From assembly GCA_009773315.1 (NCBI GenBank), contig WRPE01000003.1, positions 1 to 64,000 of the forward strand: a stretch of 64,000 bases of DNA. The letters are read 5' to 3'. This DNA is from Syntrophaceae bacterium (lineage in GTDB: Bacteria; Desulfobacterota; Syntrophia; Syntrophales; Smithellaceae). The translations under genes and the position numbers were made by a program. The first letter of the stretch is position 1. Each line of letters starts with the position of its first letter. Positions 1 to 10,380 of the stretch are shown here, one piece after another. The notes beneath the pieces were generated by a model. The model had not been told where the DNA came from. It did not search any database and saw only the letters and a list, made by a program, of their open reading frames with translations.

Positions 1-41
1 CGCTCAATTTCTTCTTTACTGATGTTAGCCTGTCTCGACAT
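1..41 (-). CDS. Start of an unidentified protein, cut by the window edge
   Basis: An ATG at 41-39 on the minus strand is preceded by a strong Shine-Dalgarno sequence, GGAGGTG (46-52), four bases upstream. It opens a frame reading MSRQANISKEEIE to the window edge. The reading frame and ribosome site make a real gene start likely, but 13 residues are too few to name a family; the polar, Lys/Glu-rich start would suit a small DNA-binding or regulatory protein, which is only a guess. It lies downstream of the caspase-like gene on the same strand. Confidence 0.5.
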   Translation of the reverse strand, partial: MSRQANISKEEIE

Positions 42-114
42 GTTGCACCTCCATGTCGATTATATATCACAGTGTCATCTTGAATGCAAATTGGAATTAG
101 ACCCGCCAAGGCAC

Positions 115-183
115 ACGAACCTGAAGGTTCGAACTACAATTCCCATCCCCACAAACCAAGCGCAGCTAAAGCTACGCACTACT
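115..183. repeat. REP-like palindrome cluster 1
   Basis: Two palindromic units of the island's repeat family. CGAACCTGAAGGTTCG followed by AACTAC lies at 116-137. A second unit, complementary to GTAGTGCGTAGCTTTAGCTG, lies at about 160-183. The GTAG/CTAC edge beside a hairpin is the signature recognised by RAYT transposases, and one is encoded at 5326-5817. Confidence 0.7.
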
Positions 184-185
184 TA

Positions 186-695
186 TTATTTCAGCACAAC
201 CATGACATCGCCAGGGTTTCCCATCACCACCGGCTGCTGCTCCAGGCCTTTGAGCCTTCTTGCCATGTACGGCACATGTTCATTCAAATATTCTGAAAGC
301 TCGCCCACGGTGATTTTCCCATCCTTGTTATGATCCGCCTCTCCCTGCAGGCCCTTGAGGAAATAATAGGTAAACAGGGAATGGCGCTTTTCCGGATACC
401 AGACAGATACCTGATCTACAGAGGCGCTTGTCATGAGCACCGCACCTGCCGGACCCCGGTATTCTTTTTTGACCTTCACCATCGCCGGACTGATGCCCTT
501 GAAGAGCATTCCCTTATCCGTGTTGCCGGAGAAGCAGGCATCCAGCACCACCGTAACTTTCTTTGCCGGTAGTTTTGAGAGATTGTCATAGAAGGTTTGG
601 AGGCGATAGCCGCTTGCGCGGATATACTCTGGATTGCCATCTACGGGGACAAAAAAGGCGTCTCCCGATTCGAGATCCGGCGCGCCGTGGCCGCC
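186..695 (-). pseudogene. C-terminal catalytic half of caspase-like protease, cut off by an in-frame amber codon
   Basis: This is the direct in-frame continuation of the 698-1880 reading frame after TAG at 698-696. Translation resumes as GGHGAPD, holding the catalytic His of peptidase family C14, and continues to VVLDACFSG with the catalytic Cys. An EF-hand-like loop (DHNKDGKITVGE) follows near the C-terminus. Both dyad residues therefore lie beyond the stop, so without readthrough the protein would be inactive. An internal ATG at 551 sits inside the DACFSG region and lacks the His, so it is unlikely to be a real start. I read this as a nonsense-mutated gene, with sequencing error as the alternative. 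Confidence 0.7.
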
Positions 696-1880
696 CTAAT
701 AGATAAACACGCGGGAGACATTTGGCTTGATGTACTTATGTAATCGGCCCTTCGGGTCTCGTTCGGTTCCGAAAATCTCATTGAGTTTGGAAAGCGTCGC
801 GTTTTCGGCATAGATTATATTGCCTTCGTCGAAGCCCATCGTCCGCAGAATGTATTCTTTCATGACGCGGGCGTCGCGGTCGGCATAGGCAACTTCGGGA
901 ATACCCTGCCCATAGGTCTTGTTGCCGATGACCACGGCGATATCGTATTTTCCGGCCTTCTGTCCTATGGGAATGTTTGTATCCACATCCACACTCAAGC
1001 CGCCGGCAATGGCGATTTCTGCCGTCTTTTCCGTATCCTGCCCGGCAACGACAATCTCTTCAACTTTCTTTTGTGGCGCATTCATGATCAACGCCAACGG
1101 ATTCTCTTTATTGAAGCGGGGGCGCGCTTCGGCCAGACTAATAGTGAGGGGAATTTTTTCACCATTGGCTATGCGGGTATTGGTATAGAACATGAATTTA
1201 AAATCCTTGAATTTGCTGGAAGGCAGAGAGCCGAGATCAAAATGCGTCTGTCCGTCCCCGCCGATAAAGACATTATTTCCTGCCTTGACATCCGCAACAA
1301 CACCCCGTGCGTCGCCCTGACCGACATTCTGGATACGGACGGTAAGTTCCACCATCTCCATCGGGTCAATGCGACCGTTTTGATTCTGGTCGTTGATTCC
1401 CATATCCGCCACAATCAGTTTCGGTTCGGCAAAGGCTTTCGTGCGGAAAGCCAGCTTGATGGGTGCCGGATCAAACCCATTGGCCTCTTTCACGTTAATG
1501 GTAAAGCCGGCATTGTCCGTGGGAATGTCCTCATCGGCCTTGACCTCGATCTCTTTGACCATTGTCTCACCGGCGGCAATCGTTCCCAGCAAAACTTCCT
1601 TCTCAAAGCTCATACCTTTGATTATTTTTGCCGTAGAAACATTCGCTTTGCAGTCAAAGGCATCTCCCTTGCCGCTGTTCTTGACGGTGATGACGAGTTT
1701 TCCTGTTTCATCAGCGTCCAACATATTGTTTCCCGATGGCTCAATAAACTTGATGGACATCGTAAGCGCCGGAGGAACAGGCGAGACGGCTATGTCAACT
1801 TTTCCCTTCCCTGCCTGCGCTGTTGATGCCAAAAGAATTAGACACCCCAAAAAGACTGCGAATAAAATATTTTTCAGCAT
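696..1880 (-). CDS. Exported CARDB-domain protein with truncated caspase-like (C14) domain
   Basis: The start at ATG 1880 is chosen over the GTG nine bases upstream because GAGAGG lies eight bases before it. The N-terminus is a signal peptide ending about AQA-GKGK. Two CARDB-type beta-sandwich modules follow: around residues 45-150, and from about residue 160 (QNGRIDPMEMVEL) to 260. From about residue 315, YDIAVVIGNKTYG begins a caspase-like fold. The frame stops at TAG 698-696, between FIY and GGHG, just before the catalytic His. Family knowledge: exported C14 proteases with CARDB modules often occur beside FGE-like lectin proteins, as here (target at 4054-5091). It is the last gene of the DGR block, downstream of TR. 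Confidence 0.75.
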   Translation of the reverse strand: MLKNILFAVFLGCLILLASTAQAGKGKVDIAVSPVPPALTMSIKFIEPSGNNMLDADETGKLVITVKNSGKGDAFDCKANVSTAKIIKGMSFEKEVLLGTIAAGETMVKEIEVKADEDIPTDNAGFTINVKEANGFDPAPIKLAFRTKAFAEPKLIVADMGINDQNQNGRIDPMEMVELTVRIQNVGQGDARGVVADVKAGNNVFIGGDGQTHFDLGSLPSSKFKDFKFMFYTNTRIANGEKIPLTISLAEARPRFNKENPLALIMNAPQKKVEEIVVAGQDTEKTAEIAIAGGLSVDVDTNIPIGQKAGKYDIAVVIGNKTYGQGIPEVAYADRDARVMKEYILRTMGFDEGNIIYAENATLSKLNEIFGTERDPKGRLHKYIKPNVSRVFIY

Positions 1881-1949
1881 ACGCAACACCTCTCACCAAG
1901 ATTAATTGGAATATACGCATAAACATTATTTCCCGCAATAGATTGTTTT

Positions 1950-2035
1950 GCGGGTCTAAAGATCCGAACTACTTTTTATGGTGTAGTGCGTAGCTTTAGC
2001 TGCGCTTTCCCTGCGGGCCTGAAGGCCCGAACTAC
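1950..2035. repeat. REP-like palindrome cluster 2
   Basis: Three units in a row: GCGGGTCTAAAGATCCG + AACTAC (1950-1972), GTAGTGCGTAGCTTTAGCTG (from 1983, to 2005 with flank), and GCGGGCCTGAAGGCCCG + AACTAC (2013-2035). They fill the gap between the DGR template region and the caspase-like gene. Confidence 0.75.
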
Positions 2036-2173
2036 ATAAAACAATGACGGAACCTTGGCCTGGCCGTCCGGCACAAGCTACCAGCACCGGCTTTGTCTTC
2101 TCTCTTTGCCCTTCTGCAAGGGACGGGATTTCGTCCGGGTCAGAGGGACCGGCATCCGCCGTTTCCCGGTGAG

Positions 2174-2321
2174 CTGGGGGCAAGGCAAGCCGGAACCCCA
2201 GGTTGTTGTTGCGGTTGTCCGGTTTGTTCCTGTTGCGATTCGCCGCGCGCGTGTTGGCGGCATTGTTGTTCCAACTGCCGCCGCGTTTGACGCGGTTGGA
2301 ACCGGAAGACGGCCCCTCAGG
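2174..2321 (-). other. DGR template repeat (TR)
   Basis: This 148-bp segment aligns without gaps to 4062-4209 (the VR) at a constant offset of 1888. By hand comparison there are 22 mismatches, and every one falls on a T of the plus strand, that is, an A of the template on the coding strand. None of the G, C or T template positions differs. In the frame of the target protein, TR is rich in AAC/AAT (Asn) codons; full randomisation of these gives many residues but never a stop. It starts at the RT stop codon (2319-2317) and runs downstream, so it is probably transcribed with RT. The G/C-rich 29 bp at 2174-2202 contains a single template adenine, unchanged in VR, and corresponds to the IMH* end. 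Confidence 0.95.
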
Positions 2322-3324
2322 ACAAAACCCCAAAACGGGATACCACATTATTTCGAAACCCGACGCAGTCGGCAAAGCGCGTAAATTCAATCAACGGTTC
2401 CATGTGCCGGATATGTTCGTCCACCGACCATTCTCCCTTTTGCCACCTGCCCTCATAGCACCGGAATTTATTGACAAATCTTCTTTTACTGTGCGGCGTA
2501 AGCAGGATCTTTTGTGGAAAAACACGATAGCCGAGAAAAGGAATTCCCCCGGCACAGCGGTTCATCTGAATATCCGGCTTCACCGTAAGCGACAGGCGCG
2601 ATTGCGTGAAATCCTTAATTGCCGGTAATTCCTCATCCATCAATTGATCCCGGTCATGGCCGAAAATCAGGAAATCGTCCATGTACCGGACATAGCCGCG
2701 CACCTTTCTTTCTTCCTTGATCCAGTGATCGAAAACGGACAGATAAAAATTAGCCAGATGCTGCGAAACCAGATTTCCGATGGGTAATCCTTTTCCGGCC
2801 TCTATTTGGTATGAGGCCATAATCTTCTCGAAAAGCAAAAGAATATCTTTTTCGCGAAAGCGACGCGCCAGCGCCGCAAGTAATATCCCGTGGTCAATGG
2901 AATCGAAATATTTGCGGATATCCAGTTTGAGAAACCAATCGAAACGCCCGGCAAATTCTTTTGCGCGCAAAACCGCCTTCTGCCCGCCCTTTCCTTTCCG
3001 GCAGGCATAGGAATCCGCGATGGCGTAGGATTCTAGAACCGGCTCGCAGACACTCATCATTGCGTGATGCAAGACGCGTTCGGGGAAAGAAGCCGCACAG
3101 ATCAACCTTTTCTTGGGATCAAAAACCTGAAAATAGCGGTAATGACCGATATCCGGATTTCTTTCTTCCATCTGGGAGTAAAGTATCTCTATATTTTCAT
3201 CAAAATTTGCCCTGAAATCGATCACGTCGCAGCGCGCCTGTTTTCCTCGGGCGGCTTTGAGAAAGGCCAATCGGATATTGTCCCGATCCGCCATTTGGCG
3301 ATAAAGATCCCCCACGCTCTTCAT
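2317..3324 (-). CDS. DGR reverse transcriptase
   Basis: This 335-residue protein copies the TR RNA into mutagenised cDNA that replaces the VR. Visible RT motifs are [14 protein letters not shown] with Asp about 135 (motif A), [10 protein letters not shown] with SQ at 187-188 (motif 4; SQ is typical of DGR enzymes where group II introns have SP), RYMDDFLIF with the catalytic YMDD at 214-217, and GIPFLGYRV later. There is no maturase or endonuclease domain and the length is normal for a DGR RT. Its ATG (3324-3322) overlaps the stop of the HRDC gene (ATGA), implying translational coupling. Its last codons overlap the first bases of TR. Identification rests on the motifs plus the adjacent TR/VR pair. 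Confidence 0.96.
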
Positions 3325-3803
3325 GCCTGCCCTCCGGTTTCGGCGGTTTTTTCCATGCCGACGATTTTCATAATCGCGTCACCGTATTTGCCAGCGCGGC
3401 TTTCACCCACGCCGTCAATGGTTTTGAGATCGGTAAGCGTGGCGGTTCGTTTTTGCGCGATGGCCGCCAGTTGTTCGTTGGTGAAAATGGTATAGACAGG
3501 CACGGCTTCCTGCACGGCGGCCTGCTTGCGCCAGTCACGCAGTTTGACAAACAGCACAAAATCTTCGGCGGAGAGAATTTCCCGGTAATCGGTCTTATTG
3601 CGATTGTCGCTTTTTTTAAAGTCCTTTTCTCCTGCCTGTGGCAGATATTCGACGGCCAGGCACCACACGGAATTCTCACCATGGCTGACAAATTCCTTAT
3701 CAATCGTCAGCGCCCGCACCGACCGCAGAAATGCATTCAATTCCGTTTCGGCCTCTGCAGACTGTGTTATTGGAATTGCAAAAAATTTGAATTGTATAGT
3801 CAT
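3321..3803 (-). CDS. HRDC-domain DGR accessory protein
   Basis: This 160-residue protein lies immediately before RT and overlaps it by four bases. Residues about 82-150 match an HRDC domain: FVLFVKLRDWRKQAA, VPVYTIFTNEQLAAIAQKR and the helix-turn IDGVGESRAGKYG. HRDC domains bind nucleic acid in RecQ helicases and RNase D. The N-terminal 80 residues (MTIQFKFFAIPI...) are not recognised. Most DGRs carry an Avd four-helix accessory protein in this position; a minority are known to carry HRDC proteins instead, and no Avd gene is visible here. The inferred role is nucleic-acid binding during TR reverse transcription or homing. No clear ribosome site precedes the ATG. Confidence 0.88.
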   Translation of the reverse strand: MTIQFKFFAIPITQSAEAETELNAFLRSVRALTIDKEFVSHGENSVWCLAVEYLPQAGEKDFKKSDNRNKTDYREILSAEDFVLFVKLRDWRKQAAVQEAVPVYTIFTNEQLAAIAQKRTATLTDLKTIDGVGESRAGKYGDAIMKIVGMEKTAETGGQA

Positions 3804-3825
3804 ATGTCTAAACCAATGACAGAAA

Positions 3826-3953
3826 GCGGGCCTAATAACCTAACCACGCGATGCCCGCACTACATTGTTTAACGTCGAGCTTAACGTAGTGCGTACCTCG
3901 CGTGACCTTTAGGTAATTAGGTGCGCAAAACGGGCCTGAAGGCCCGAACTACA
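3826..3953. repeat. REP-like palindrome cluster 3
   Basis: The gap between target and HRDC genes holds several units: a long one beginning GCGGGCCTAATAACC and ending CCCGCACTAC (3826-3852), one starting GTAGTGCGTACCTCGCGTGA (from about 3886), and CGGGCCTGAAGGCCCG + AACTAC (3931-3953). All carry the GTAG/CTAC edge. Confidence 0.7.
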
Positions 3954-3983
3954 TCCCACATACAACATCTGCTGACTGGCCCG

Positions 3984-4041
3984 CATCATCTCTGTCGAAT
4001 CAGGCCGGCTCCGCTGCGGCCTGCTTACGCCAGAGATGATG
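3984..4041. promoter_or_regulatory. Cruciform-forming inverted repeat just downstream of VR
   Basis: The outer arms CATCATCTCTG (3984-3994) and CAGAGATGATG (4031-4041) are perfectly complementary (11 bp). A nested pair, CAGGCCG (4001-4007) and CGGCCTG (4017-4023), adds a 7-bp inner stem. It lies 20 bp past the 3' end of VR in coding direction, outside the target gene, and has no T-run on either side, so it does not look like a terminator. In well-studied DGRs a hairpin/cruciform at this place stimulates target recognition; that role here is inferred from position. Confidence 0.7.
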
Positions 4042-4053
4042 AACATGCCCGAC

Positions 4054-5091
4054 TCACTGACCTGGGGGCAAGGCAAGCCGGAACCCCAGGTCGCAGTAGC
4101 GGACGCCCGGCTTGACCCTGTAGCGATCCGCCGCGCGCGTGCTGGCGGCAAAGTTGCCCCAACTGCCGCCGCGCTGGACGCGGAGGGAACCGGAAGACGG
4201 CCCCGCAGGGTTATCCCTTGGGCTTTGGTTATAATACTTATTGCCATACCAGTCACTACACCATTCCCAGACATTGCCGCTCATATCATGTAGCCCCAAT
4301 CCATTGGGCTGCTTTTGGCCTACCGGATGAGTCTTGCTACCTGAATTGGAACTATACCAGGCGTAATCTCCCAGAGAAGATTCACTGCTCGTGCCCGGCC
4401 ACTTTTCGCTCTTTCCGCCGCTTCTTGCGGCGTATTCCCACTCCGCCTCCGTCGGCAGGCGATACCGCTTGCCACTATTGCGATTGAGCTTTTCAACGAA
4501 TGTCTGCACATCGTTCCAGGATACCATTTCTACAGGGCAGTTATCACCACAACCGCTGTAATAGGATGGATTGTTTCCCATGACTTTTTTCCACTGACCC
4601 TGTGTGACTTCGTATTTCCCCATGTAAAAATCATTAACGCAAACTTCATGCACCGGCTTCTCGTTACTTTCGCCACCACCAACGGTATCCCCCATCTGGT
4701 AACAGCCGCCTTTGACGAAGATCAATTCGATGCCGGTTACGGAATCGGTTAATGCATCCCCGCTTGTCGTCAGTTCCCAATCCGCCGCGCCCCGCAGACC
4801 ACGCGGAAAGTCTTGCAGAATGTTCCAGGTCACGCGTTTGCCCTTACCGGTCTTGAGCTTTCCCACATCACCTTCAATATGCAGTTCAGAGGATTTGTAG
4901 GTTTTCCCTTCCACCGTGATGGTCAGATTTACCTCCGCCTCTTTTTCCTTCCCTTCCAGATCATAACTGATCACCAGGCGGTTCCCCTCCTGCCGCGCCT
5001 TTTCGTTTTTGAGTTCGGCGGCGGATAAAGGCAAAGCGAGCAGCATTGTCAGCATCAGAACAAACAGCAAGCATGTATTCTTGTTTATCAT
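4054..5091 (-). CDS. DGR target: exported FGE-like C-type lectin-fold protein
   Basis: 345 residues, with ATG at 5091 preceded by GAGGTT. Residues 1-24 are a signal peptide. Residues about 25-110 form a beta-rich module (ISYDLEGKEKEAEVNL, KGKRVTWNILQDFP) of the kind found with FGE-like and caspase-like proteins. Residues about 115-345 are an FGE-sulfatase fold: VKGGCYQMGD, EVTQGQWKKVMG, RLPTEAEWEYAAR, GNVWEWCSDWYG, and GGSW through LGFRLALPP. The VR encodes residues 295-343 and 14 residues differ from the TR-encoded version, at 296, 303, 306, 312, 314, 317, 322, 324, 326, 329, 330 and 332-334. The fold probably serves as a ligand-binding scaffold rather than as a formylglycine enzyme, since the region of the usual catalytic cysteines is the randomised one. 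The export signal suggests a periplasmic or surface role. Confidence 0.93.
   Translation of the reverse strand: MINKNTCLLFVLMLTMLLALPLSAAELKNEKARQEGNRLVISYDLEGKEKEAEVNLTITVEGKTYKSSELHIEGDVGKLKTGKGKRVTWNILQDFPRGLRGAADWELTTSGDALTDSVTGIELIFVKGGCYQMGDTVGGGESNEKPVHEVCVNDFYMGKYEVTQGQWKKVMGNNPSYYSGCGDNCPVEMVSWNDVQTFVEKLNRNSGKRYRLPTEAEWEYAARSGGKSEKWPGTSSESSLGDYAWYSSNSGSKTHPVGQKQPNGLGLHDMSGNVWEWCSDWYGNKYYNQSPRDNPAGPSSGSLRVQRGGSWGNFAASTRAADRYRVKPGVRYCDLGFRLALPPGQ
4062..4209 (-). other. DGR variable repeat (VR)
   Basis: This is the partner of TR 2174-2321. Relative to the template, 11 substitutions are A to G, 8 are A to T and 3 are A to C (hand count); 21 of the 22 are nonsynonymous and one is silent (Lys327). 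The conserved G/C-rich end (4062-4090) is the presumed IMH, and homology breaks at 4061, where VR and TR differ at a non-adenine. VR ends five bases before the target's stop codon. Confidence 0.95.
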
Positions 5092-5108
5092 AATAACCTC
5101 AATATTTT

Positions 5109-5282
5109 GCGGGGCTAAAGCCCCGAACTACTTTTATATGGCGTAGTGCGTAGCTTTAGCTGCGCTTTTATTTTCGGGTCTAATAACCTGTAGGTCACAC
5201 GAGACCCGCACTGCGTTTAGATGACGTAGTGCGTTCCTTCAGGTGCGCCTGTTCTTCTCGGGGCTGAAGCCCCGAGCTACGT
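5109..5282. repeat. REP-like palindrome cluster 4
   Basis: Several units between the RAYT gene and the DGR target: GCGGGGCTAAAGCCCCG + AACTAC (5109-5131), GTAGTGCGTAGCTTTAGCTG (from 5143), a longer imperfect unit ending CCCGCACTGCG, GTAGTGCGTTCCTTCAGGTG (from about 5226), and CGGGGCTGAAGCCCCG + AGCTAC ending about 5281. Confidence 0.75.
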
Positions 5283-5325
5283 TTTTACGCAGGCTTAGAT
5301 TACGTTTTCTAACACCAGGGACAGA

Positions 5326-5817
5326 CTACAATATGTTTTTTATATCAAGCGCCAATGATCCTGAATACTGATAATCAAGATAATGTGCAACTAATTCTTT
5401 TCTTACGGGATTGTTCAGGATATACCGCAAAACTTCGCTGGTATCTTCTTCTTTCCTCAATACATGTTCATAATATCCGGGTTGCCACAGTTTTTCCCCG
5501 GCATTAGCTTCTTCATGCGTGAACCAGTAACCTGTTTTCTGCTTAAACTCCTTTATGAAATTCTTCAGATCCGAATGTTCATTTACACCCTCCACAAGCA
5601 GATGCAGGTGATCCGGCATGAAACAATAAACCCAAGTTGTAAAATATTGCTTTTCTCCCGTTCGCGCAAGGAATGAAATCATCTTTGCTATAAGCTGATC
5701 ATTTTCCACAAAGACGTTTTTCTTGCTGTCTGTGCAAATGGTCACAAAATATCGATAACGGCCGCGATAGTCAAAATTTTTGAGATGGGGTTTTGGTTTG
5801 TATTTTATTTTGTTCAT
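5326..5817 (-). CDS. REP-associated tyrosine transposase (RAYT, Y1/HUH family)
   Basis: 163 residues, full length for the family. The HUH metal-binding motif is seen in FMPDHLHLLVEG, and the presumed nucleophile region in WQPGYYEHVLRKEED, followed by LRYILNNPVRKEL. RAYTs are single-copy domesticated relatives of IS200/IS605 transposases that bind and cut REP sequences carrying a GTAG edge next to a hairpin. Here the gene sits among seven clusters of exactly such repeats (115-8392), so enzyme and substrate are probably matched. It lies between the DUF4384 gene and the DGR target on the same strand. Whether it has any part in the DGR is unknown. Confidence 0.9.
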   Translation of the reverse strand: MNKIKYKPKPHLKNFDYRGRYRYFVTICTDSKKNVFVENDQLIAKMISFLARTGEKQYFTTWVYCFMPDHLHLLVEGVNEHSDLKNFIKEFKQKTGYWFTHEEANAGEKLWQPGYYEHVLRKEEDTSEVLRYILNNPVRKELVAHYLDYQYSGSLALDIKNIL

Positions 5818-5829
5818 CCTGCCATCCGC

Positions 5830-6082
5830 AACCTAGTTTTTCGTAGTCCGGGTCTTCTTGGAAACTTGAATGAGCAATCCCCTTCTATACATGTAGTTCG
5901 TAGCTTCAGCCCCGCAATAGGTTAGACCAATTAGCATGGTGCGAAGCTTTCTTATTAAAGCGCAGCTGAAGCTACGCACTACATATTCATCGTCGTACAT
6001 TTTTACGTAGTCCGGATCTTCAGATCCGCAATAAAAAGCGAATCTGATAACCTGGCGGTCACGCGAGGTTCGCACTACATTA
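5830..6082. repeat. REP-like palindrome cluster 5
   Basis: A 250-bp block between DUF4384 and RAYT genes made only of repeat units, some degenerate: GTAGTCCGGGTCTTC, GTAGTTCGTAGCTTCAGCCC, GCGCAGCTGAAGCTACGC + ACTAC, GTAGTCCGGATCTTCAGATC, and a terminal unit ending GAGGTTCGCACTAC. An open frame across it (5833-6075) is just translated repeat. Confidence 0.7.
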
Positions 6083-6090
6083 CCAATGTA

Positions 6091-6933
6091 TTACTGCGCT
6101 ACGACTTCGTAGGGCAAAATCGTATCTTCACACTGGTCAATGATTTCTGAAAGCTTTGCGAAAAATTCGCTCATGGGGATTGCTTCACCCGGCGCAAAGT
6201 GTTGCAAAATATTGATTCCCCGCGTTTCATCCCACGCGACAACAAAAATAGCCTCGGCATCCTTTTTATGATCGGCAAGGGTCTGCATCTCCAACTCTAC
6301 TTTCGCATCTTTGGCAGGAAAGACAAAATTCTCCCCGGCGGCAAGCTTGTTGTCCTTCTCATAGGTATTGGGAAACAAGAGCGCGACGGTATCATCGGCC
6401 ATGATATTGAATAGCGCAATTCTTGCCGCGCTTTTCGTCTTGATCGTTACCCTTGCTTTTTCACCATTACGAAAAATGACGTTGTTGAGATTGGCTGTAA
6501 GCCCGATTGCCTTTGATTTTCGTTTGGGGATATAGACATCCGCTACGATTTTGACACGATATTCCGGGATGGGTGCGGTGGATGGGTCTTTCTGGTATTG
6601 CCCCAAGGGCAGCCAGGTCACTTTCTCGGCGACAATGAACCCACGTGAATAAGTTTTGATGAAATCGGCGGCAACGGTGTAATTGGTGACCAGGGTTGCC
6701 GCGGTTACGGAAACACCTGCCGCCTGCTCGATTGCCGCCGCCCGCGCCCGCTGCAACGCTGTCAACTGCGACTGCTCGGCGCTCATGCCGACAATGGCGC
6801 AGGCCGCTTCGGCCTGAATGCCTTTTTTAACCTCGCCGCCACGTCCGGTTTTTGGCTCGGCCAACGCAAAAACAGGTAAAATCAGCATCACAGCCAGCAG
6901 TAGAACAAATATCATGTATGCATTCTTTTTCAT
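6091..6933 (-). CDS. Exported DUF4384-domain protein
   Basis: About 280 residues from ATG 6933, chosen because GGTGAGG lies just upstream; a TTG at 6948 is also in frame. A hydrophobic signal sequence (AYMIFVLLLAVMLILPVFA) is followed by a segment with ALQRARAAAIEQAAGVSV, as in LPP20/curli-assembly-like domains. The C-terminal half (AARIALFNIMADDTVALLFPNTYE ... VVAWDE) matches DUF4384. DUF4384 domains are frequently fused to or encoded beside caspase-like and FGE-like proteins, as here. Its molecular role is unknown; it is probably an extracytoplasmic part of the same system as the lectin and caspase-like proteins. Confidence 0.75.
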   Translation of the reverse strand: MKKNAYMIFVLLLAVMLILPVFALAEPKTGRGGEVKKGIQAEAACAIVGMSAEQSQLTALQRARAAAIEQAAGVSVTAATLVTNYTVAADFIKTYSRGFIVAEKVTWLPLGQYQKDPSTAPIPEYRVKIVADVYIPKRKSKAIGLTANLNNVIFRNGEKARVTIKTKSAARIALFNIMADDTVALLFPNTYEKDNKLAAGENFVFPAKDAKVELEMQTLADHKKDAEAIFVVAWDETRGINILQHFAPGEAIPMSEFFAKLSEIIDQCEDTILPYEVVAQ

Positions 6934-6951
6934 CATCCTCACCTTCAACTC

Positions 6952-7156
6952 GGTAGTGTGTAGCTTTAGCTGCGCTTTCTTACGGGGCTGAAGCCCCGGA
7001 CTACATGTGGTCTGAGGTCATAAGGTGCGATATTATAACAATGTAGTCCGCACCTTAAGGTGCGCTTGTTTTTACGGGCCTGAAGGCCCGGACTACAACA
7101 AAGCCTCATCACCTAATACCTAAAGGGCACTCGAGGTGACACGAGGCCCGGACTAC
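6952..7156. repeat. REP-like palindrome cluster 6
   Basis: Units between pyrD and the DUF4384 gene: GTAGTGTGTAGCTTTAGCTG, ACGGGGCTGAAGCCCCG + GACTAC, GTAGTCCGCACCTTAAGGTG, ACGGGCCTGAAGGCCCG + GACTAC, and a last unit with CGAGGCCCGGACTAC ending about 7156. They lie immediately behind the pyrD stop and could form stabilising 3' hairpins in its transcript. Confidence 0.75.
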
Positions 7157-7168
7157 AAGATAAAATGT

Positions 7169-8104
7169 TTAAGTGCGCAATGTTCCAACAATATCGTTTA
7201 TATTTTTTATTTTATTGTCTTGCAGATAATGCCGGATACCGTCAATGATGTCGATGGTAGCGTGGGGATTGATGAAATTGGCCGTGCCGATTTGCACTGC
7301 CTTTGCGCCGGCGATCATAAATTCCAGCGCGTCTTCAACCGTCATGATGCCGCCGATGCCGATCACCGGAATGGCAACTCTTTGCGCCACCTGCCAGACC
7401 ATGCGTAGCGCAACCGGTTTGATGGCCGGACCGGACAGGCCACCGGTGATATTTTTCAGATGCGGGGTTCTGGTTTTCAGATCAATGGACATGCCGGTAA
7501 GCGTATTGATCAGGGATACCGCATCGGCACCTGCTTCTTCCACCGACTGGGCGATGGCTGCAATGTCCGTCACATTGGGCGTGAGCTTGACGATCACAGG
7601 CAGGTGCGTTTCGGCCTTCACGCGGCGCGTGACTTCTGCGGCCGCCTTCGGGTCGGAGCCAAAACTGAGCCCTCCCTTTTTTACATTAGGACAGGAGACA
7701 TTGACCTCTAATGCATGGACGCCTTCGGCCTGACTCAGCTTCTTTGCGACTTGCGAATATTCCAGAGTGCTTTCACCATAGATATTGGCAATGACAGCAA
7801 CATTATACTGCCGTAAAAAGGGAAGCTTCTCTTCGAGAAATGCATCGACACCGACATTCTGCAGGCCGACGGCATTGAGCATACCACCTGCCGTTTCCAT
7901 GATTCGCGGCGGCGGATTCCCCAGGCGGGGTTTCAACGACAGCCCTTTTACAACAATGCCGCCTAACTGGTTTAAATCCACATAATCCGCGTATTCTTCG
8001 CCATAGCCGAATGTACCCGAGGCGGTCATCACCGGATTCTTCATTTTCAGAGTGCCAATCTCCACGGCCATTGCTGATTCTGTCCTTTTGTTGCTGTTTT
8101 TCAC
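7169..8104 (-). CDS. pyrD: Dihydroorotate dehydrogenase B, catalytic subunit
   Basis: Oxidises dihydroorotate to orotate in pyrimidine synthesis, with FMN; in the class 1B enzyme electrons pass to the PyrK subunit and NAD+. Visible are NPVMTASGTFGYGEEY at the FMN site, VNVSCPN with the active-site Cys about 138 (Cys rather than Ser marks class 1), INTLTG, and GIGGIMTVEDALEFMIAGA in the phosphate-binding loop. 311 residues from GTG 8104; an ATG at 8071 gives a more typical N-terminus (MAVEIGTLKMKNPV) and may be the true start. pyrK lies upstream on the same strand, but a 288-bp repeat cluster separates the two. Confidence 0.95.
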   Translation of the reverse strand: MKNSNKRTESAMAVEIGTLKMKNPVMTASGTFGYGEEYADYVDLNQLGGIVVKGLSLKPRLGNPPPRIMETAGGMLNAVGLQNVGVDAFLEEKLPFLRQYNVAVIANIYGESTLEYSQVAKKLSQAEGVHALEVNVSCPNVKKGGLSFGSDPKAAAEVTRRVKAETHLPVIVKLTPNVTDIAAIAQSVEEAGADAVSLINTLTGMSIDLKTRTPHLKNITGGLSGPAIKPVALRMVWQVAQRVAIPVIGIGGIMTVEDALEFMIAGAKAVQIGTANFINPHATIDIIDGIRHYLQDNKIKNINDIVGTLRT

Positions 8105-8126
8105 CTTTCGATTTTCCTCTCAAGAA

Positions 8127-8392
8127 GCGGACCTCAAGGTCCGCACTACATAGTATATGTGTCACCGACGTAGTCCGGGTTTTTAAACCCGCGCATTTCT
8201 TGGCGGACTACAAGCAGCCCTGGCTTTCAGACACATGCTGACCGCGTGGGCCTAAAGGCCCGAACTACGTCAATTATTCAAAACCAATGTAGTGCGAACC
8301 TCGCGTGACCGTTAGGTTATCAGGTTCGCTTTTTTTGCCGGGGCTGAATCCCCTAATTACATAATATCGTTTATACGGACCTGAAGGCCATT
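8127..8392. repeat. REP-like palindrome cluster 7, inside the pyrK-pyrD pair
   Basis: The 288-bp gap between pyrK and pyrD is filled by repeat units: GCGGACCTCAAGGTCCGC + ACTAC (8128-8150), GTAGTCCGGGTTTTTAAACC (from about 8170), GGGCCTAAAGGCCCG + AACTAC (ending about 8268), a long unit GTAGTGCGAACCTCGCGTGA (from about 8299), and degenerate ends. No gene is seen in it. Confidence 0.75.
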
Positions 8393-9208
8393 TTATTCCC
8401 AGATCACTTTCTCCAGATCAAACACAGGCCCATCGGCGCATACCCGCTTAAAAGCTGGCTTCCCCTGCCCGTCTTTAACGGCAACAACACAGCCCACGCA
8501 AGCGCCGACACCACAGGCCATGCGTTCTTCCAACGACACCTGGCAGACATATTTGCCGGACAATATCGTCGATAACGATTGAAGCATCACTTTAGGTCCG
8601 CAAGCGTAAATAATTGTATTAGAAGGAGAATACGTTTTTATATCTTTTTGAAACATCCTGGTAACCAGAGCCTTTGCTCCCAGACTCCCGTCATCTGTAC
8701 ACACGATGATGTTGTAACAGAGTTTTTGAATACGATCGAGACCAACAACAGCTTCGGCTGTTTGCGCCCCCAGGTAAAATGTCATGGCGTCTCCGGTCAG
8801 GCCGTCTTTCTGACAAAAGCACTTTGCCAGCCAAGACAATGGCGCAATGCCAATGCCTCCGGCAATAAAAACGATGTTCTTCTTTAACGGATCAATGGTA
8901 TAGCTTCCGCCCAGCGGCCCGGATATTTCAACTTGCGACCCTTTAATCAGCCCCGCCAGGATCTGCGTCCCCTTGCCTGCCACACGATAGAGCAATTCAA
9001 TGGCACAATGTGACTTACCGCGTGTATATGAATAAATGCTGATAGGTCGCGACAGAAACGGGTCGTGTAAACCGGCAATGCGGATCATCACAAACTGCCC
9101 CGGAAGGGGTTCCGTAAAACTCGAAGGCAACATCACTTTCATCAGAAAATAATTGATTTGGATTTCTTCGTTTGCGGCAACTTCTCCAATGTAAATGTCT
9201 TTAGCCAT
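8393..9208 (-). CDS. pyrK: Dihydroorotate dehydrogenase electron-transfer subunit
   Basis: 271 residues, normal for the family. An N-terminal FAD-binding beta-barrel contains FLSRPISIYSY. The NAD-binding middle has NIVFIAGGIGIAPLSWLA and YACGPKVMLQSL. The C-terminus has a 2Fe-2S cluster motif, MACGVGACVGC plus a later Cys (KRVCADGP). It carries electrons from PyrD to NAD+. Its start overlaps the rimI stop by eight bases, so the two are translationally linked. Confidence 0.95.
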   Translation of the reverse strand: MAKDIYIGEVAANEEIQINYFLMKVMLPSSFTEPLPGQFVMIRIAGLHDPFLSRPISIYSYTRGKSHCAIELLYRVAGKGTQILAGLIKGSQVEISGPLGGSYTIDPLKKNIVFIAGGIGIAPLSWLAKCFCQKDGLTGDAMTFYLGAQTAEAVVGLDRIQKLCYNIIVCTDDGSLGAKALVTRMFQKDIKTYSPSNTIIYACGPKVMLQSLSTILSGKYVCQVSLEERMACGVGACVGCVVAVKDGQGKPAFKRVCADGPVFDLEKVIWE

Positions 9209-9719
9209 TTTTTCTTTCCTGTTGGTTTTCAGCCCACATCACCAGAGCATCCTCGTGCGTATCGGTGTAATATAAGGGTCGTCTTCCCTTTACTACAAAA
9301 CCGCATTTACGGTAAAGATTTATTGCCTCGTGATTCGATTCGCGAACTTCCAGGGTCTGTCTGTTAATCCCCACTTGAAGCGCGATGTCTGCCATTAAAT
9401 TCATCATATTGTATGCCAGCCCCTGCCTGCGGAATTCATTGCTCACCGCCAGATTGTGCAAATGAACTTCATCAACCACAAACCAGAAAATGATGTAGGC
9501 GGCAATAACTGTTTTTCCTGTAATCTCGATTTTAATGACCAGGCACTGGGCGTGTGTTGTTCGAAGCTCATCGAGAAACATGCCTTCCGTCCAAGGCGTC
9601 GGGAACGACGCGCGTTCAATCGCCAGGATTTCCGGCAGATCATCTTTTTTCATCAGATCGACGCTGACTTGCTGCTTCATGTTTTCAGAAGACATGGAAA
9701 AATTCCAAAGCCACGGCAA
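9201..9719 (-). CDS. rimI: Ribosomal-protein-alanine N-acetyltransferase (GNAT)
   Basis: A GNAT-family acetyltransferase with ASFPTPWTEGMF near the N-terminus, LHNLAVSNEFRRQGLA (acetyl-CoA loop) and RESNHEAINLYRKCGF, the classic RimI signature. RimI acetylates the N-terminus of ribosomal protein S18. The open frame overlaps the upstream PTS IIC gene by 35 bases; internal ATGs at 9695 and 9680 would remove most or all of that overlap and are plausible starts, but none has a clear ribosome site. Confidence 0.88.
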   Translation of the reverse strand: MPWLWNFSMSSENMKQQVSVDLMKKDDLPEILAIERASFPTPWTEGMFLDELRTTHAQCLVIKIEITGKTVIAAYIIFWFVVDEVHLHNLAVSNEFRRQGLAYNMMNLMADIALQVGINRQTLEVRESNHEAINLYRKCGFVVKGRRPLYYTDTHEDALVMWAENQQERKNG

Positions 9720-10380
9720 CCCCTAAAAATATCGCGCAAAAAACGGGAATCGCACCGCGCAGCTTGATGGTATTGATCGCAACGGCAATGCCCAACAGCG
9801 GCAGAAAATAATATGTCAGGGAAAGCATGGCATTGATCTCTGCCGGTAATTTCGGATAAAGCCAGATCAGCATGGGGATTAAGATTGATTGCAGAATGAA
9901 AAGCCCGACAACATAAAATAGAAATACTTTGGCCAGCCCCAGATAGGTTTTTCTTTCTATGGCGCGAATGTCGCGTGTTTTTGCCGCCTCCAGAGCCTGA
10001 TCGGAAAGTAGATTGTTGGACTCTATAATTTTAACATCAATTTTTTTTGCCAGAATACCAAAAGGGATCGCAAGCAGGATTGAGAGGGCCATCAGTTCTT
10101 TTGTGACCACTCCCGAAAATTGCCCGGATAGTATCGCTATCGATGCCGCCAGTGCTGAGGCCATGGAATCATTGGGAGGGACATAAATGCCGACGGGAAT
10201 GCGGTCAATCCAGAACAGTTCGAGAATAGCGCCGATGATCAGTCCCGCATAAGGATTGCCCAGAATAATGCCGATAACCGGGGCAATGATGATCGGCCGG
10301 GAAATCATGGTCTGAATGAATACGCGATCGAGACAAAGCAGGCCGCCGACAAAAGATATAAGAATTATTTTTACAAACAA
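9685..10380 (-). CDS. PTS mannose-family IIC membrane component
   Basis: 231 residues with about six hydrophobic segments. The early IISRPIIIAPVIGIILGNPYAG and GAILELFWIDRIPVGIYVPPND match the EIIC-sorbose (ManY) family. With IIB and IIA genes directly upstream it forms an incomplete mannose-type PTS; no IID gene is present here. In Desulfobacterota such partial systems are often regulatory, though transport cannot be excluded. It begins at TTG 10380, with GAGG upstream. Confidence 0.85.
   Translation of the reverse strand: MFVKIILISFVGGLLCLDRVFIQTMISRPIIIAPVIGIILGNPYAGLIIGAILELFWIDRIPVGIYVPPNDSMASALAASIAILSGQFSGVVTKELMALSILLAIPFGILAKKIDVKIIESNNLLSDQALEAAKTRDIRAIERKTYLGLAKVFLFYVVGLFILQSILIPMLIWLYPKLPAEINAMLSLTYYFLPLLGIAVAINTIKLRGAIPVFCAIFLGVAVALEFFHVF

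Follow-up and report, generated by a model that had tools for sequence, protein, structure and literature searches.

Evidence for a chromosomal diversity-generating retroelement with an exported FGE/TvpA-like target in a Syntrophaceae bacterium

The window, a stretch of 64,000 nucleotides of DNA from a Syntrophaceae bacterium, carries a compact gene cluster on its minus strand (Table 1). In the direction of reading it comprises genes for an exported DUF4384 protein, a REP-associated transposase, an FGE-sulfatase/TvpA-like protein (the target), an HRDC-domain protein and a reverse transcriptase (RT), followed by the template copy (TR) of a repeat and a gene for an exported protein with CARDB and caspase (C14) domains. 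The second copy of the repeat, VR, lies at the end of the target gene. The stop codon of the HRDC gene overlaps the start codon of the RT gene (ATGA), and the RT stop codon falls inside the first bases of the TR (CC-TGA-GG), the TR frame being readable as an FGE C-terminus too. Inspection of the sequences by eye revealed a hydrophobic, signal-like N-terminal segment in each of the target, DUF4384 and caspase proteins; that of the target ends ALPLSAAELK, with no Cys seen at the likely cleavage point. REP-like palindromes (GTAGTNCG..CTTNAG..CGC) surround the retroelement and the REP-associated transposase, and 12 of the 15 exact copies in the genome lie within 8.2 kb of the contig start (window positions 130-8300).

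Table 1. Features of the locus, with positions in the window
Feature	Positions	Strand	Remarks
Exported DUF4384 protein	6091..6948	-	PF14326; upstream neighbour of target
REP-associated transposase	5326-5817	-	
Target gene, FGE-sulfatase/TvpA-like, 345 aa	4054..5091	-	PF03781, E 3.3e-52; VR at C-terminus
VR	4062..4209	-	Codons 295-343 of the 345-codon target gene; 22/148 mismatches, all at TR A
VR 3' end, IMH-like	4059..4068	-	CCCCCAG then GTC (sequence)
Hairpin/cruciform-forming inverted repeat (predicted)	3984..4041	-	20 nt downstream of VR; fold z -6.5
HRDC-domain accessory protein, 160 aa	3321..3803	-	PF00570, E 5.6e-18
Reverse transcriptase, 335 aa	2317..3324	-	Pfam RVT_1; IGNLVSQ and YMDD motifs
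Last RT codons, CGTTTTGGGGTTTTGTCCTGA	2319..2340	-	Nucleotide-identical in window, L015, L017 and L087
TR, 148 nt	2174..2321	-	36 adenines; one pair only in genome
TR 3' end	2171-2180	-	CCCCCAG then CTC (sequence)
Structured RNA segment 3' of TR (predicted)	2038..2178	-	Covariation
Exported CARDB-caspase (C14) gene	186..1889	-	In-frame TAG at 696-698

An ungapped alignment of TR and VR spans 148 columns, and alignment of the flanks showed that the likeness ends at both repeat borders. All 22 mismatches occupy positions that are T on the plus strand of the TR copy, corresponding to A of the coding strand. The initial annotation had reported this from a hand alignment, and its count proved exact: from TR to VR there are 11 changes of A to G, 8 of A to T and 3 of A to C. 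The kind of mismatch that it had named as contrary evidence, at a non-adenine template site within the repeat, was looked for in the alignment and occurs at 0 of 112 such sites. For 22 random mismatches all to fall on the 36 adenines the probability is 4.0e-17. A degenerate-pattern search of the 2.98 Mb genome (86 contigs) yielded no further full-length TR copy with <=3 non-A mismatches.

The encoded residue is altered in 14 of the 15 changed codons. Introduced one at a time into the TR, 20 of the 22 substitutions are nonsynonymous, the silent ones being two third-position changes in the AAA codons 306 and 327; the figure of 21 given in the initial annotation is reached only by counting all substitutions that fall in a changed codon. 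That annotation had also proposed probable selection for diverse binding residues, which the data do not support. Because the template is rich in AAC and AAT codons, 94% of the A substitutions in the TR are nonsynonymous. Across four TR/VR pairs the residue is changed in 58 of 82 A-containing codons, compared to 57.8 +/- 3.5 expected under random A mutagenesis, and Tyr, Phe, Asp and Leu are slightly over-represented in these pairs, though not significantly after correction for 20 residues. Since codon design alone produces the nonsynonymous bias, the bias is no evidence of selection.

Relatives of the RT were collected from 85,000 genomes by RT similarity alone, not by repeats. In nearly all relatives with a detectable repeat the mismatches are on A. 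When 24 TR/VR pairs of relatives were pooled, 382 of 622 A sites were found changed (207 to G, 120 to T and 55 to C), and 8 of 1398 non-A sites. One Smithellaceae MAG contains an orthologous locus (L015), with an RT 82% identical to that of the window and a target gene 77% identical outside the VR; in its own TR/VR pair, 22 mismatches are at A and one further mismatch is at the edge. The TRs of the window and L015 differ at eight non-A sites, and at each of these both VRs carry the base of their own TR (8/8). Where both TRs have A (32 sites), the two VRs differ from each other at 25, and at the 103 shared non-A sites they differ at 1 (Fisher p 7.5e-20). Agreement of each VR with its own TR, together with divergence at the A sites, indicates that, since the window and L015 lineages separated, each VR has been rewritten from its own TR by retrohoming. 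The initial annotation had taken the many altered adenines to mean that the element has been active, and had suggested comparison with VRs in sibling strains or metagenomic reads; the ortholog, in which the VR tracks the local TR, supports past activity beyond the mismatch count. A plain duplication of the FGE 3' end, followed by A-biased point mutation or sequencing error, would suit copies that lie 1.9 kb apart and a TR frame that reads as an FGE C-terminus, but it is refuted by the template-linked concerted change at all eight sites, and the confinement of the differences to A, here and in almost all RT relatives whose repeat could be detected, as well as the adjoining DGR-type RT, leaves it a negligible chance.

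The top PDB match of the RT is 8ub7 (E 7.6e-40), the RT complex of a diversity-generating retroelement (DGR). The IGNLVSQ motif of the RT also speaks for the DGR type, and in the tree the RT clusters with RTs whose TR/VR pairs are A-specific. HRDC homologs adjoin the RT in L015-L018, L086 and L087, and those RTs that adjoin an HRDC gene make up a single clade (support 100/100) of Thermodesulfobacteriota, without viral rows. PADLOC DpdF matches of the HRDC protein were discarded as reflecting merely the common HRDC domain, and DRT/Cas matches of the RT as general RT similarity. The nucleotide identity of the last RT codons among orthologs suggests a second constraint at the RNA level, and this stretch is possibly a 5' flank element of the TR RNA. 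A second RT in the same genome (L001, G000:C30:11091-11777) has a TGA within its frame. In Bacteroidota relatives (L019-L026, L044) a conserved ORF of ~100 aa, with a pattern like MKxFxDxxIK...FPFxTTI, directly follows the RT and is possibly an accessory gene in place of HRDC.

Many DGRs are viral and the window RT has viral homologs, so that a phage-borne DGR altering a receptor-binding protein was considered. However, the best viral relative of the RT is 40% identical, against 56-89% for cellular Thermodesulfobacteriota, and none falls within the HRDC clade; on these grounds phage origin was rejected as very improbable. The genes around the cassette are chromosomal ones, the target is an FGE protein exported from the cell, and among the viral relatives of the RT no viral contig with an HRDC-RT-FGE set at high identity was seen.

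VR and TR both end in an identical GC-rich stretch closing in CCCCCAG, followed by G in the VR and C in the TR. This G/C difference recurs in L015, L016, L086 and L087, and judged by sequence the 3' ends qualify as IMH/IMH* type. The inverted repeat downstream of the VR occurs once in the genome. It is nearly the same in L018, and in L068 its outer stem is changed with compensation; the predicted hairpins have z values of -6.2 to -6.5. The corresponding stem of L015 is a different one, and L086 and L087 have yet another, with z -3.6 and -3.1 when trimmed to the stem and -1.8 and -1.6 untrimmed. In L067, where HRDC, RT and TR are lost, a chimeric version is present that does not fold (z +1.2). 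Its left arm (hairpin region, L067 1850-1930) is L015-like and its right arm window-like, and the gene body resembles that of the window; the chimeric arms suggest recombination between DGR loci. BPP-1 requires a hairpin/cruciform, the stem of which is free in sequence (PMC3240598). The pattern in the window agrees with this requirement, although the loop differs: the hairpin is unlike the 7-10 bp stem with a 4-nt GRNA loop of phage DGRs.

Conservation of the ~140 nt that follow the TR extends to Desulfobacteraceae. Of 38 predicted pairs in this segment, 14 show double changes, and its covariation score is 0.437 compared to 0.220 +/- 0.033 after shuffling (0/500 shuffles); the exact structure is provisional, as the input comprised only five sequences. 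A covariance model of the segment (R1) detected three further genomes of the order among 155 searched, with 121-130 bits, and all three matches sit at a DGR locus of the window's kind. The spacer downstream of the TR in BPP-1 is folded and brings in bRT-Avd (PMC12875486). By analogy, the TR-3' RNA of the window is a putative counterpart of the Bordetella Sp region and may have the same role. No Rfam family scored above the gathering score in window 1-9000, and a promoter scan near the cassette gave matches below chance expectation.

In sequence, the solved structure to which the target comes closest is 2y3c, the TvpA protein of Treponema denticola (E 4.5e-49). An earlier model of the target, built on six full-length proteins, was of low quality (pLDDT 47); a model of the FGE domain from 18 sequences reached pLDDT 86.7. 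Compared with 2y3c, the latter scores Z 32.6 across 227 residues; against the DGR proteins Mtd (1yu3) and TaqVP (5vf4) its Z is 13.9 and 13.8, respectively. The model places the VR C-terminally within a predicted C-type lectin fold.

On the basis of the A-only TR/VR differences, the DGR-type RT, the HRDC protein, the lectin-fold target, the IMH-type ends, the hairpin, the TR-3' RNA and the rewriting from the local TR, we interpret the locus as a chromosomal DGR, with a probability of about 0.96. If it operates like the Bordetella system, the TR would be transcribed together with the 3' structured segment, which would recruit the RT and the HRDC protein. The RT would then copy the TR RNA, misreading adenines, and the cDNA would replace the VR at the IMH, with the hairpin assisting. 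This would yield an exported FGE/TvpA-like protein whose ligand-binding face varies.

Related loci range from complete to lost cassettes. Genome G154 (L087) has the complete order DUF4384-FGE(VR)-HRDC-RT-TR-caspase. G150 (L086) has the same order, but with a deletion from HRDC into RT, and the G112 locus (L088) begins at the RT end and continues with TR and caspase. In L068 the target is followed by the hairpin, a 98-nt TR remnant and an intact caspase gene, a transposase replacing HRDC-RT and part of the TR. L067 has target and caspase only, without HRDC-RT-TR, the cassette being lost from a stretch flanked by REP-like repeats; L069 and L070 are likewise, and no RT was found at these two loci. 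In L018 (UBA8930 copy) the RT is cut after 154 residues, around 6462, beside transposase-like sequence, and VR and hairpin are intact. With decay so frequent in the genus, as in L067, L068 and L018, and with an interrupted caspase gene beside it, the window DGR could itself be a fossil, a once-active machinery left with an old VR. We regard this as improbable, since all DGR parts are intact in the window and non-A differences are absent from its TR/VR pair; several have arisen in the decayed L068 (TR sites 119, 120, 122, 138 and 144).

The TAG in the caspase gene lies directly before the catalytic GGHG motif, where relatives have a Tyr codon; it may be a lesion, an assembly error or recoding, and the interrupted gene is the sole copy found in the genome. 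A caspase-linked conflict system would call for an intact catalytic caspase beside the sensor, and in the window this gene is interrupted by the TAG. The caspase is intact in L068, L069, L070, L086, L087 and L088 and frameshifted in L067. As a neighbour at the locus it is present in L015, L086, L087 and L088, together with a TR, and in L067-L070 without an RT; a DUF4384 gene is at the same place in L068, L074, L086 and L087. A second DGR, in G047, has as its target an exported caspase-FGE fusion with a C-terminal VR (L078 2129-3862, minus strand; L009), an RT 37% identical and a TR upstream of the RT. The Desulfobacteraceae DGR with HRDC (L016) comprises two NACHT/STAND-like proteins (2232-5258 and 7288-10164) with C-terminal FGE VRs, and one TR.

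The FGE-caspase neighbourhood and the fusion point to target and caspase as partners, and we lean slightly towards the FGE protein being the recognition partner of the adjoining exported caspase-like protease. For this step alone there is a serious competitor, with a chance somewhat below even: on this view the caspase lies there by chance and the FGE protein acts alone, as an adhesin or a TvpA-like surface receptor. In the window and L067 the caspase is broken while the VR frame stays open, so the caspase is not needed for target retention; moreover, TvpA is described without a caspase, and none lies beside the L018 copy. However, the gene order is conserved across several families of the order, the linkage outlasts loss of the DGR, and a caspase-FGE fusion is itself targeted by the second DGR of G047. 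The partnership could be extended to an extracytoplasmic, fast-varied DUF4384-FGE-caspase sensor-protease system of the Smithella group and related families, in which an HRDC-type DGR with its own conserved TR-3' RNA varies the recognition surface of the exported FGE protein, and this protein controls the exported caspase-like protease. We put this forward tentatively, as a rather unlikely whole.

The element is a DGR of the TvpA type, with FGE target and HRDC accessory, which is a published kind: the TvpA DGR of Treponema denticola has an HRDC accessory and an FGE-sulfatase target (PMC4891356; structure 2y3c). Common to both are an exported FGE/C-type-lectin target, an HRDC gene overlapping the RT gene and TR/VR diversification. 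The order in the window is target-HRDC-RT-TR, whereas in T. denticola TR and RT flank the HRDC gene; the window further differs in a single target and linked DUF4384 and caspase genes, and possibly in the signal segment, in which no obvious lipobox was seen by eye. With Bordetella BPP-1 (PMC3240598; PMC12875486) the window shares the TR/VR/RT logic, IMH ends, a post-VR hairpin and a TR-3' RNA. It has HRDC instead of Avd, a larger hairpin without the 4-nt GRNA loop, a cellular location and a TR downstream of the RT.

DGR-diversified FGE or caspase-bearing proteins are known from multicellular bacteria and cyanobacteria (PMC10907252, PMC7517822, PMC7159879), including cyanobacterial targets with orthocaspase domains (PMC7517822). 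As in the window, FGE/CLec VR domains are tied to caspase-like peptidases in these DGRs, but their targets are mainly STAND, MoxR-vWA or multidomain signalling proteins, whereas the window encodes separate exported proteins in a Smithella-group anaerobe. Caspase and FGE fused in one protein are described as metacaspase-FGE-sulfatase in the sections of PMC3501461 consulted, which make no mention of a DGR for this architecture; on that description L078 is of this type, in contrast to the two separate genes of the window. A search of the open-access literature found no papers on DGRs of this bacterial group, which is weak evidence. Three details are new: the setting of exported DUF4384, FGE and caspase proteins, the TR-3' RNA found in the HRDC clade, and a set of cassettes that runs from intact to decayed.

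As a DGR, the locus is a textbook case, and its value lies in the comparative set of intact, half-deleted and lost cassettes within one order. The set of orthologous loci shows retrohoming by concerted evolution and ties the post-VR hairpin to the presence of a DGR, and the covarying TR-3' RNA can be used to search for further HRDC-type DGRs. For the target, whose function is otherwise unknown, the constant DUF4384-FGE-caspase neighbourhood suggests a role that can be tested.
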